A stretch of 64,000 bases of DNA, taken from Actinopolyspora saharensis. GTDB lineage: Bacteria; Actinomycetota; Actinomycetes; Mycobacteriales; Pseudonocardiaceae. Below are positions 48,940 through 59,019 of this stretch, one piece after another; positions within the stretch are counted from its first letter, which is position 1, and every line of letters starts with the position of its first letter. Location: contig NZ_FNKO01000001.1 in NCBI RefSeq assembly GCF_900100925.1, positions 1,240,001-1,304,000 of the forward strand. The letters are read 5' to 3'. Both the position numbers and the translations under genes were made by a program. The notes under the pieces are model-generated. The model did no database searches, was not told the origin of the DNA, and worked only from the letters and a program-made list of their open reading frames with translations.

Positions 48940-49278
48940 CACAATCCTCCTCACCGAACGCGTTCGCGCGTACACAGCATGAGTTCGCCGCGCGGAAGGG
49001 GCAACCGCACACGCCGACGGTGCCCAGGTCACGGCGGATCCGCGCACGCAGGGGAGAGGAAGCCGACCCTGCCGGTCGTCCCATCGGGAGCGACGGCCCC
49101 GGGGCAGGGGGGACGGGGCAGCCGTCGCGGCGAGCACGGCGGGGCCGTGCACGTGGCCGGGATTCCGGGCGCTGCCCGCTCCAGAAAGCGGGTACGCGGG
49201 ATTCGCCCGCGAAGCCGGGCGGGCAAGCAACTCGACAGTCGGGCGGTGGCCCGGTGAGCGCCCACGAAAATCCCCAGT
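48940..49278. other. Gene-poor flank left of the dif region
   Basis: These 339 bp contain no convincing protein frame; the long frames crossing them have no recognisable composition. CCACGAAA (49262-49269) and TTTCGTGG (49278-49285) form an 8-bp inverted repeat that overlaps the dif-like site. The promoter of the zinc-ribbon gene must lie at the left end. Confidence 0.4.
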
Positions 49279-49306
49279 TTCGTGGATAATATTCATTATC
49301 CATGTT
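49279..49306 (+). repeat. dif-like site (degenerate copy)
   Basis: The 28 positions agree with the actinobacterial dif consensus at 19 sites, including TTCG at the left end, GATAAT and the TTAT after the 6-nt spacer. The right (XerD) arm TTATCCATGTT differs strongly after TTAT. The centre is a perfect 8-bp inverted repeat, TGGATAAT and ATTATCCA around ATTC (49283-49302). It lies in the same orientation as, and 513 bp before, the strong dif site. It may be a decayed dif copy or an unrelated palindrome. Confidence 0.45.
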
Positions 49307-49791
49307 TTGTGGAACTGCGAAGCGATCGAGCGGGGTTCGGTGGGGCAGCAGCGAGCCGCGGCCGAGCACGAATGCGCGCGGTCCGCCGCACGAGCAAGCG
49401 CATGAGCTCGCAGTCCGCTGAGGCTGCCGGAAGAGCAGGGGCGGGCATGTCGAGCTTTCCGGAGGAGCCACGGGGACCAAGGTGCAAGGGACCGAGGTGA
49501 TCGAGACCTGCTGGGCGGCACAAGAATCACCGTGACGAATATCCGGTTGCGCGGCCCACACCTGGATGCGCTCCGTACGAGGCCACTGATCAACACCGCT
49601 GTGCGGCCGGGCCGAGCCGACCTGGCCGCCGACGCGGCCGCCGTGTGGCTCGCGGCCAAGTCCGCCGGTGCGCGGACGGGCTCCGGCGCGGGGCGCGCCG
49701 CAACGAGCTCGCGCCGCCCGCACCGATGCGCGGCTTCGTGCACAGTCGAACACAGCCGGGGCTTTCGTGCACCGCACTCCACTCGAAGCAA
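49307..49791. other. Interval between the two dif-like sites
   Basis: About 485 bp without a recognisable gene. It is GC-rich and carries no obvious repeats. If both flanking sites are XerCD targets, this could be the residue of an element once inserted at dif. Confidence 0.35.
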
Positions 49792-49819
49792 ATATCCGAT
49801 AATACACATTATGTTAAGT
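49792..49819 (+). other. dif: Chromosome dimer resolution site dif (XerC/XerD target)
   Basis: The left arm ATATCCGATAA (49792-49802), the 6-nt spacer TACACA (49803-49808) and the right arm TTATGTTAAGT (49809-49819) match the actinobacterial dif consensus at 24 of 28 positions. The right arm is 10 of 11 identical to the E. coli XerD arm. The four differences are three in the outer left arm and one T for C in the right arm. XerC and XerD recombine here to separate chromosome dimers, driven by FtsK. The place is gene-poor, as usual for dif. It implies a circular chromosome with its terminus here. Confidence 0.88.
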
Positions 49820-49989: not shown

Positions 49990-50715
49990 TCAGGTGTGCG
50001 GTGGTGTCCGCACCGCTTCGGTGACCAGCGCGGCGTTGTCCTCGGCGATGTCCCCGCCGGGCAGCGTGAACGTGTCCTCGAAGCCGATGCGGGCGTGCAG
50101 CCCCCGTCGTTTGGCCAGTCCGAGGACGGACCACGCCCCTGCTCCCCTTCCGTGCAGCAGGATCGGGAGGTTTCCGGGGACGATGCGTTCGAGTCGGTCG
50201 AGCAGCGTCGTGGCCGTGTTCGCGGCTCCGTTCCGGGTGGGATCGGTGACTCTGGCGAGCACGCGCAGCGCTCGGCCGCGCTGGGGCCACTGCGCGAAGT
50301 CCTCCTCCGCGTTGGTTCCCGAGTGGATACCGACCTCCACCCCGATGCCGCGTTCCATCAGGGCGAGGGCGATTTCCTCCGCCCCCTGCTCGTGCCAGTT
50401 CACCGAAGCGTGGTCGGGCAGCACCGTCCACTCCCCGATCGCTGTGAGCCTTGATCGGGTGTCCGGGGCGGTCCAGGTGCCCGTGGTGATTCCCACCGGG
50501 ATTCCGGGGGCGGCTGCGCGCGCGGCGTTCACGGCGGCGGCCACCGTCGCCGGGTCCAGGCTGTCCGTGCCGTCGGGGGTTTTGGGGTGCAGGTGGATGT
50601 CCTCGGCGCCTGCCGTGACGCTGTCCGCCGCTGCCTTGGCGAGGTCGGGGGGTTGCACGGGCAGATGGTGGTGTTCCCGGGGACCTCGGGCGCCGTTGAG
50701 GCAGACCTGCAGCAT
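49990..50715 (-). CDS. BKACE family protein (3-keto-5-aminohexanoate cleavage enzyme-like)
   Basis: The 241-residue protein is a short member of the DUF849/BKACE TIM-barrel family, which cleaves beta-keto acids with acetyl-CoA using a zinc ion. Visible features are C-L-N-G-A-R-G-P, H-L-H-P-K near residue 42 as the zinc-binding pair, V-G-I-T-T-G-T-W, S-V-N-W-H-E-Q-G and V-E-V-G-I-H-S-G. Many members have 270-310 residues, so this one is a reduced form. The exact substrate is unknown. ATG 50715 was used. It is divergent from mdh. Confidence 0.82.
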   Translation of the reverse strand: MLQVCLNGARGPREHHHLPVQPPDLAKAAADSVTAGAEDIHLHPKTPDGTDSLDPATVAAAVNAARAAAPGIPVGITTGTWTAPDTRSRLTAIGEWTVLPDHASVNWHEQGAEEIALALMERGIGVEVGIHSGTNAEEDFAQWPQRGRALRVLARVTDPTRNGAANTATTLLDRLERIVPGNLPILLHGRGAGAWSVLGLAKRRGLHARIGFEDTFTLPGGDIAEDNAALVTEAVRTPPHT

Positions 50716-50885: not shown

Positions 50886-51911
<1,026 letters not shown>

Positions 51912-57888: not shown

Positions 57889-59019
57889 TCACTCGTGGGG
57901 GTCGTCGATGACGCCTGCCATGGTGTAGGCGGGGCTGTTGTTGAGGTTCTCGTCCACGCGCAGGTACAGGCGTGTGGTGCGGGGGTCGGCGTGGTCGAGG
58001 TAGGTCTGCACTTCGGCCAGTGAGCGGCGTTTGCCGAGTGAGGTGGCCACGCTGTGGCGGGTGGAGTGCGGCACGAGTCGCTCGGGGTCGTTGATGCCGG
58101 CTGCCGTGGCCGTGCGGCGGAGCATGTTCGCCAGGTAGCTGTTCGACAGCGGCCTGCCTCCGGGTTTGCCGCGGTAGGGAGTTCCGGCGAACAGCGGTCC
58201 GGTCAGTTGGGCGGTGTCGAGGTTCTGGCGGGCGGCTCGCAGCCGCAGGTAGTTGTCCACCATGGCCGCGGCGTAGGGCACGAGGGGTTTCGCGGATTGG
58301 CCGCCGCCTTTGGTGCGGTAGTGCAGCAGCCGGTGTCCGCCCCGGGTGCCGAGGTCGTCGGGCAGGCGGGCGTTGCGCACGGCGCCGGAGCGCACGCCGG
58401 TGGTGATCAGCACCCGCAGCACCGCGGCGTCGCGGACGGCGGTTTCCAGGGTTTCGGGGTCGGCGTTCTCGGCTCGGCGGGTGGCCTCGGCCAGCAGCGC
58501 GTTGAGTTCCTCGTCGGAGAGCCAGGCCGTGTCCGAGCCGTTGGAGCGGCGGTTGTGCTTGGGGCGTTTGACGCGGGCGGCGGGGTCGCTGGTGGCCGCG
58601 TCGTTGTCGATGAGGTAGCCGTACCAGCTGCTCACCCCGGCCAGGCGGGTTCGGACGGTGGCCGGTCCGACGTCGAGTCCGGACACCCAGTGGTCCACAT
58701 CGGCGCGGCGTGCTGCCAGGGGGTCGATGTTTTCCAGTTGGCAGAAGCGCAGCCAGCGGGCCACCGCGTGGGTGTAGGAGCGGGCGGTGTGCGGGTCGCG
58801 TCCGTCGCGTTCGGCCTGCTCGACGAGTTCGCGGGCCCACAGTTCGGTCAGCCCGCGCAGGTGGTAGCGCTGCCCCGGTTCCGGGGCGGGCAGGGTTTCG
58901 CGCGCGGCGGAGGGCAGTTCGGCGGACACGTCGGTGGGGGGTATCGCCTCGCCCGGGCGTGTCGAGCGCGCGGGGGTGGTTGCCGCGGTGGTGTGCTTGT
59001 CGGGAGGGGTGGCCTCCAT
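57889..59019 (-). CDS. Tyrosine recombinase/site-specific integrase
   Basis: The 376-residue protein has all catalytic residues: Arg210 in T-T-G-V-R-S-G, Lys237, His318 and Arg321 in H-S-T-R, His343 in L-D-H-A-D-P and Tyr352 in R-L-Y-L. The core-binding domain (residues about 55-150) follows a disordered, Pro/Thr-rich N-terminus of about 50 residues. It is longer than XerC or XerD. No attachment site was found beside it, and no phage or ICE genes follow. Broken genes lie to its right. It may be a chromosomal recombinase or the remnant of an integrated element. Confidence 0.9.
   Translation of the reverse strand: MEATPPDKHTTAATTPARSTRPGEAIPPTDVSAELPSAARETLPAPEPGQRYHLRGLTELWARELVEQAERDGRDPHTARSYTHAVARWLRFCQLENIDPLAARRADVDHWVSGLDVGPATVRTRLAGVSSWYGYLIDNDAATSDPAARVKRPKHNRRSNGSDTAWLSDEELNALLAEATRRAENADPETLETAVRDAAVLRVLITTGVRSGAVRNARLPDDLGTRGGHRLLHYRTKGGGQSAKPLVPYAAAMVDNYLRLRAARQNLDTAQLTGPLFAGTPYRGKPGGRPLSNSYLANMLRRTATAAGINDPERLVPHSTRHSVATSLGKRRSLAEVQTYLDHADPRTTRLYLRVDENLNNSPAYTMAGVIDDPHE

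Follow-up and report, generated by a model that had tools for sequence, protein, structure and literature searches.

A dif site and a candidate second, single-recombinase Xer site at the chromosome terminus of Actinopolyspora saharensis

Main

XerCD/dif is usually taken to be the only resolution system of a chromosome, and XerS and XerH are regarded as replacements for it. XerS/difSL and XerH/difH, in each of which a single enzyme works on a near-symmetric site to which its gene is linked, are described as alternatives to XerCD (PMC5357621, PMC2731167). Searches of the open-licence literature (PMC3025954, PMC8138268, PMC5357621 and PMC2731167 included) showed no account, in actinobacteria, of a third Xer enzyme or a second palindromic site next to dif; the subscription literature may have one.

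Here we analyse a stretch of 64,000 nucleotides (the window; C1:1240001-1304000) from the 4.68-Mb genome of A. saharensis, which is assembled in two contigs, C1 and C2. An original prediction had placed dif, and with it the replication terminus of a circular chromosome, within this window. That reading was right and at the same time incomplete, because dif here is part of a two-site locus (Table 1). On comparative sequence grounds we favour, with a probability of roughly 0.7, an explanation in which the window holds the chromosomal dif and, beside it, the core site (element A) of a second Xer system that uses a single recombinase.

Table 1 Features of the dif locus and related features. Positions refer to the window unless a contig (C) or another locus (L) is named.
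Feature	Position	Strand	Remarks
Small cysteine-rich ORF, 87 aa	48679..48942	-	Left of A; reads away from A and dif
Element A with outer arms (TTTCGTGGATAA ... TTATCCATGTTTTG)	49278..49309	.	Extent from information content of 39 dif-linked sites
Element A core, TGGATAA-TATTCA-TTATCCA	49283..49302	.	dif-like palindrome, 513 bp from dif, XerC-arm side; candidate core site of a third Xer-type recombinase
Element B variant, AATCACCGTGACGAAT	49525..49540	+	Two mismatches from CGTCACnGTGACG; spotted by eye
dif	49792..49819	+	XerC arm 49792-49802, centre 49803-49808, XerD arm 49809-49819
BKACE-family gene	49990..50715	-	Right of dif, 3' end towards dif; PF05853, E 2e-25
Malate dehydrogenase gene	50925..51911	+	NF003916, 552 bits versus cut-off 271
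A-linked recombinase P0001, 352 aa	C1:463453-464508		Outside the window
A-type sites bracketing or near phage-defence genes (Qat, Pycsar, Gabija, Hachiman, type IIG restriction), mycobacterial	L395:4189-10435; L396:4629-9688; L117, L126, L149, L168, L182

A single dif at the terminus

The 28-mer ATATCCGATAATACACATTATGTTAAGT is almost certainly dif. With up to three mismatches allowed, the genome contains no second copy; the looser core CGATAATNNNCATTATGTTAA (up to three mismatches) has a single match in the window, against none in 100 shuffles; and the dif core at up to two mismatches was present in 55 of 61 genomes (our own and 60 relatives), as a single copy in each. Genome-wide uniqueness, single copies in the relatives and the empty shuffles thus bear out the identity that had been proposed. 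Across the 249 genomes of the family dif was found in 219. A second dif-like site (up to two mismatches) was seen in only two of the 249, among the matches listed (G145:C5:384269 and G184:C55:6710). By hand comparison, 10 of the 11 positions of the right arm equal those of the E. coli dif right arm, and here the earlier count stood; the accompanying match to the actinobacterial consensus at 24 of 28 positions was not reproducible. The Frankia alni dif printed in PMC3025954 is equal to the window dif at 22 of 28 positions, and a blastn comparison of the 201 bp around dif with plasmids gave short, weak matches only.

The nearest genes had been said to point away from dif, which holds for the left-hand ORF (no match in NCBIfam or Pfam at the limits applied) and not for the BKACE-family gene on the right, which faces dif. 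A TCTGCGTATTGCATCTGATGAA-like sequence directly to the right of dif is common to genomes of three families (L088, L089 and L075), and L075 has a long palindrome with similar words 248 bp to the right of dif. Within the window, 8 kb to the right of dif (~57889-59019, minus strand), a 376-aa ORF encodes a further tyrosine recombinase, which has no close relation to XerC, XerD or the A-linked family described below.

The claim that this locus is the terminus is supported by the position of dif opposite a parS cluster and near a switch in GC skew. Of six parS-type sites, five lie together at C2:1,503-1,506 kb, and the sixth, a weaker one with two mismatches, lies at C2:1,733 kb. In 40 sampled genome stretches (20-kb samples) and the window, skew on C2 is negative up to the 1.48-Mb sample and positive after it, switching at ~1.50 Mb; on C1 it passes from positive to negative between the samples at 1,304 kb (+0.005) and 1,391 kb (-0.027). 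Because the 14 kb immediately to the right of dif (C1:1,289.8 kb) still have a skew of +0.114, the switch does not fall exactly at dif but, by the 20-kb samples, ~15-100 kb beyond it. The signs of the skew suggest that C2 follows on from the end of C1, and if it does, the two parS-to-dif arms measure 2.41 and 2.27 Mb (51.5% and 48.5%). The 8-mer CGGGGGAG, chosen post hoc for having the strongest skew, occurs 39 versus 6 times to the left of dif and 3 versus 25 times to its right; counts of E. coli-type KOPS were too few to use. A linear chromosome is not favoured, since dif, skew and parS geometry fit a circle, and from this two-contig assembly we infer a circular chromosome, as had been proposed.

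A check on the cognate enzymes found a XerD-like protein encoded at C1:1.51 Mb and a XerC-like one at C2:40 kb. The former (L002) passes the NCBIfam XerD cut-off (332.1 versus 329.6), and the latter (L003) passes only the general Xer model (279.7 versus 279) and scores below the XerC cut-off (313.8 versus 335.15). At the terminus, XerC and XerD would resolve chromosome dimers on the dif of the window.

A second palindromic site beside dif

A repeat search around dif returned GATAATATTCATTAT 513 bp to the left of GATAATACACATTAT. The palindrome there, element A, had not been reported in the original prediction and is added here as a second site beside dif. Its architecture, GATAA-N6-TTATC, is that of dif, with two XerC-like arms, a variable centre and informative outer arms: across 39 dif-linked sites, in which the core arms are fixed by the search pattern itself, information amounts to 0.5-1.4 bit at the five positions that flank each core arm on its outer side and to 0.1-0.9 bit at the six central positions. 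The pattern TGGATAA-N6-TTATCCA occurs once in the A. saharensis genome. All ten Actinopolyspora genomes have a single copy of A, 335-513 bp from dif on the XerC-arm side, and the sequence to the left of A differs among the species.

Exact matches to GGATAA-N6-TTATCC were found in 21 of the 61 genomes, with one copy in each of ten congeners. At up to one mismatch, A is present in 145 of the 249 family genomes, against about 20 for a reversed control pattern (counted by eye), and a scan of the class with a stricter pattern found A in 31 of 374 genomes and its reversed control in 2. Short AT-rich palindromes do arise, as the 20 or so control genomes illustrate, and A might then be a chance or unrelated sequence next to an ordinary dif that alone matters; we rejected this as scarcely credible in view of both excesses over the control, the single copy beside dif in each of the ten congeners and the presence of A in all 136 family genomes that encode the enzyme described below.

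Statistics on the position of A relative to dif come from 75 listed copies in 67 of the 145 A-positive family genomes. Among these listed matches, 66 copies (in 65 of the 67 genomes) have dif or a dif-like site at most 1.4 kb away, and every one of the 66 is on the XerC-arm side, at a median of 470 bp; the distance from A to dif ranges from 259 to more than 1,000 bp. In a collection of named genomes, a scan with a stricter pattern gave at least 120 stretches, 80 of them listed. Thirty-eight of the 80 listed loci have dif within 1.2 kb, and those near dif come from Amycolatopsis, Saccharothrix, Saccharopolyspora, Actinopolyspora, Streptoalloteichus, Actinoalloteichus, Kribbella, two Mycolicibacterium and four Rhodococcus; in the other 42 (26 mycobacteria, 11 non-actinobacteria and 5 other actinobacteria) the retrieved stretch contained no dif. 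At all four listed Rhodococcus loci with A near dif, A is on the XerD side, and the same arrangement recurs in some genomes of two further families (f15 and f31; see below), so the side is not universal.

A third recombinase co-inherited with A

The reading of A as a site of XerCD only was rejected, because both arms are XerC-like and A tracks a third enzyme. In A. saharensis this enzyme is P0001, which shares 50% identity with Kribbella and Actinoallomurus proteins. It is neither XerC nor XerD, because both of its scores against the NCBIfam models (178.5 for XerC and 169 for XerD) are far under the equivalog cut-offs (335.15 and 329.6); the XerS model gave 80 bits against a cut-off of 267. 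The residues R, K, HxxR, H and Y, which we take to be catalytic in tyrosine recombinases, are invariant in 15 of 15 aligned relatives and were identified in P0001 by eye. Among solved structures, XerD is closest in sequence. For the Kribbella protein, an AlphaFold2 model of moderate confidence (pLDDT 80.6, pTM 0.61) matched XerA, XerH, a mycobacteriophage integrase and XerD in Foldseek at TM ~0.4-0.5; these predicted matches support the fold class only. A phage origin, with the pair as a phage integrase module, was also considered and rejected: 5 of 50,697 phage records matched (E<=1e-20), all at less than 32% identity.

Scored as a P0001 match at E<=1e-40, the recombinase is encoded in 136 of the 249 family genomes, which sort into 136 with both enzyme and A, none with the recombinase alone, 9 with A alone and 104 with neither (Fisher p 4e-60). 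At the genus level, A occurs in 23 of 23 recombinase genera versus 6 of 23 others (Fisher 1e-7). Both p-values, uncorrected for descent, overstate independence among related genomes. Comparison of genomes thus gives the sites, their geometry, their co-inheritance with the enzyme and their linkage to dif. On sequence evidence the pairing of enzyme and A by inheritance is well supported, and A is very probably the site of the P0001-type recombinase. That 104 of the 249 genomes lack both parts indicates that the system is dispensable. For five of the nine genomes with A alone the surroundings were read: in three (G063, G076 and G108) no A-type palindrome lies within 1.5 kb of dif, and in two (G125 and G249) A is far from dif.

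We tabulated the geometry of gene, A and dif in 57 of the 67 genomes with a listed A, leaving out those with the gene on another contig (G001, G003, G004, G007, G008, G093, G100 and G127) and the two without the gene (G125 and G249). The gene lies within 6.3 kb of dif in 50 of the 57, always in the order dif - A - gene and reading away, and in 31 of these 50 the matched part of the gene starts 92-138 bp beyond A. At five loci listed in the named-genome scan (L108, L111, L115, L149 and L168) the recombinase ORF ends within ~110 bp of A or overruns it, and at a sixth, L152, it begins ~30 bp from a second A-like site. The remaining seven genomes of the 57, five of them Actinopolyspora, have the gene 0.14-1.08 Mb off and A still at dif.

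This arrangement bears on the idea that A is a transcriptional operator only and serves the recombinase or another regulator in the control of the gene next to it. The short gap in the 31 near cases would suit such a role, as would the location of A just upstream of the gene at four of six plasmid loci (see below). In Actinopolyspora, however, the gene is 0.65-1.08 Mb away on the same contig in five genomes and on another contig in the other five, yet all ten keep a single A beside dif with a varying left flank, which is hard to explain if A is only the operator of the gene; an operator would also not account for the dif-like 6-bp centre and arms. We therefore regard a purely regulatory role as highly unlikely.

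In the wider class the enzyme (E<=1e-45) occurs in 31 of 374 genomes, stricter A in 31 and both in 26. Four of the five enzyme-positive genomes without strict A have an A-type palindrome 299-773 bp from dif on the XerD side; two of these four (G440 and G465) have A under a looser pattern, and the other two (G449 and G475) a variant, 328 and 357 bp from dif. The fifth, G484, offers only a weak A candidate. Among the five class genomes with A and no recombinase, A lies 779 bp from dif in G566 and ~500 bp in G307. The Rhodococcus loci with A beside dif showed no such recombinase gene in the stretches read. From enzyme-positive genomes of the two other families (f31, n=18; f15, n=2) we took twenty 20-kb regions, of which 15 contain dif; all 15 have A 299-952 bp from it, on the XerC side in 12 and on the XerD side in 3. 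In a sixteenth region, from G559, A lies 369 bp from a dif that has diverged.

Seven f31 genomes of 7.6-9.3 Mb (G527, G325, G420, G591, G575, G636 and G484; loci L273-L275, L277, L324-L326 and L328) encode the enzyme and have no dif at up to two mismatches. Six of them have A and one a weak A-like site, and six share the centre GTGCGA (in one orientation). Either dif has diverged in these genomes or the second system has taken over.

A further motif near dif, element B (CGTCACnGTGACG, up to one mismatch), has 24 copies within 600 bp of dif, at 22 of 65 loci, and 11 copies in the other 574 kb, a 16-fold enrichment near dif. It lies on the XerC-arm side in 23 of the 24 near-dif copies and occurs also at loci without A. 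The relatives that carry it are L031, L033, L035, L036, L038, L040, L064, L066, L072-L076, L084, L086, L088, L089, L092, L097, L099 and L101; the window's own copy is too degenerate to enter the enrichment count. B is possibly the binding site of a terminus protein.

The shared XerC-arm side of B and of the 66 listed family copies of A would fit a model in which A and its recombinase are accessory to XerCD/dif, the bound protein aiding or orienting dif synapsis with no recombination at A. Accessory sequences act in this way at plasmid cer and psi. Such a role is distinctly unlikely here, given how widely the distance between A and dif varies, the position of A on the XerD side in some f15, f31 and Rhodococcus genomes, the retention by the enzyme of the presumed catalytic residues, and the seven genomes that have the enzyme (six with A, one with a weak A-like site) and no dif at up to two mismatches.

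Plasmid relatives and mobile contexts

In a tblastn search, members of the recombinase family were found on 60 of 72,556 plasmid records (Mycobacterium 32, Rhodococcus 18, Mycolicibacterium 7 and three others), with about 35-39% identity to P0001 among the records listed. At four of six plasmid loci, an A-type palindrome (0, 1, 1 and 3 core mismatches) lies ~15-25 bp upstream of the annotated gene start; the fifth, from Rhodococcus, has a different palindrome with 4 mismatches ~370 bp upstream, and at the sixth the only copy, with 2 mismatches, is ~1.4 kb upstream. A tree of 43 proteins unites the plasmid and mycobacterial members in one clade (100/100), apart from the chromosomal ones, and joins the Kribbella protein with Amycolatopsis proteins (100/98) inside a Pseudonocardiaceae clade, a placement that suggests horizontal transfer of the module. 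In Kribbella monticola (L115), the A-linked recombinase is ~1.2 kb from Kribbella's own dif.

The Amycolatopsis-like genome G184 has, apart from its main dif contig, a 176-kb contig (C55) on which a further dif-like site and a perfect A are separated by 1.3 kb (L401:6710-8057). The 20 kb read from this contig contained no A-linked recombinase, the gene adjoining the genome's other A, and its dif neighbourhood gave short matches on eight large actinobacterial plasmids.

At some mycobacterial loci A-type sites bracket or adjoin phage-defence genes. In one chromosome (G483), matches to QatA, QatC and QatD lie between two A sites that are 6.2 kb apart and differ in their central hexamers; the nearer site is 937 bp from dif. 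In another genome, a contig of G542 has two A-like sites, each with one mismatch, that enclose two PycC matches and one PycTM. We laid out the ORFs of 23 mycobacterial loci and tested 20 ORFs from 15 loci with PADLOC. The first ten, the largest ORFs near A from seven loci, gave matches at five of the seven (Gabija, Hachiman, type IIG restriction twice and HEC-06), and the second ten, from eight loci, gave one weak match only. In L149, Hachiman was assigned by homology to L126. Because large ORFs favour defence genes and there was no matched control, we treat the association as a lead only.

These contexts raise the alternative that A is an attachment site for mobile cargo, with the recombinase as a domesticated or resident integrase and plasmids or defence cassettes entering and leaving in a pdif-like manner. 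The enclosed Qat genes, the Pycsar cyclases and PycTM between one-mismatch sites, the Gabija, Hachiman and type IIG restriction genes near A at further loci and the apparent horizontal movement of the module all speak for it. Against it stand the single copy of A in ten of ten Actinopolyspora genomes, its family-wide inheritance with the enzyme, the near-empty second set of ORFs and missing matched control, and the differing central hexamers of the Qat-bracketing sites, which are unlike a simple integration outcome. We judge this explanation unlikely.

Discussion

The reading of A as a second Xer-type core site is the most economical, because it brings together dif-like geometry, a variable centre, informative outer arms, a dedicated enzyme and plasmid relatives. 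For binding, strand exchange and a role in resolution we infer the following course: two identical P0001 protomers would bind the mirror-image arms of A; sister copies of A, gathered at the terminus, would synapse in a tetramer; strands would be exchanged across the 6-bp centre (TATTCA here); and dimers or interlinked sisters would be converted to monomers, independently of XerCD/dif or as a backup to it. We give even odds to resolution as the chromosomal role of A.

Hyphal growth with rare septation may limit FtsK-coupled XerCD and so provide a use for a second system, although this is conjecture. More broadly, and with somewhat less than even confidence, we propose that many actinomycete chromosomes keep XerCD/dif and a domesticated plasmid-type resolvase with a palindromic site side by side at the terminus, that the second resolves sisters where the first is limiting (for example, in rarely septating multigenomic hyphae), and that the same type of site borders phage-defence cargo in mycobacteria. 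If true, many chromosomes would carry two resolution systems, with the second enzyme-site pair kept by dif across several actinomycete families. The A module would then offer a testable handle on chromosome segregation in filamentous actinomycetes and a link between plasmid and chromosome maintenance, and it provides a new recombinase with a defined candidate target.

The locus shares features with several known systems. As in XerCD/dif elsewhere, the window dif has an 11-6-11 layout and is terminal, single-copy and intergenic, in a genome with XerC-like and XerD-like genes; it differs in the adjoining second palindromic site with its own recombinase. The tyrosine recombinases of mycobacterial and rhodococcal plasmids belong to the same protein family and have a like palindrome just upstream at four of six loci, but they form a separate clade (100/100), are plasmid-borne and, in the loci read, are annotated only as tyrosine-type recombinases. 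As in pdif modules and IMEX elements, cargo (defence genes, in two mycobacterial genomes) is bracketed by Xer-type sites, although here the sites are of the A type, not dif, and would be served by the third recombinase. XerS/difSL of streptococci and XerH/difH of epsilon-proteobacteria likewise have one recombinase of ~340-360 aa, a near-symmetric terminus site with a short centre and, often, an adjoining gene (PMC5357621, PMC2731167). Linkage of gene and site of this kind is found in 50 of the 57 tabulated family genomes and not in Actinopolyspora. The arms of A differ from those of difSL and difH, and the A module also differs in coexisting with XerC, XerD and dif, with A within ~1 kb of dif; in A. 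saharensis, where XerC-like, XerD-like and dif are all present, it would accompany XerCD/dif rather than replace it.
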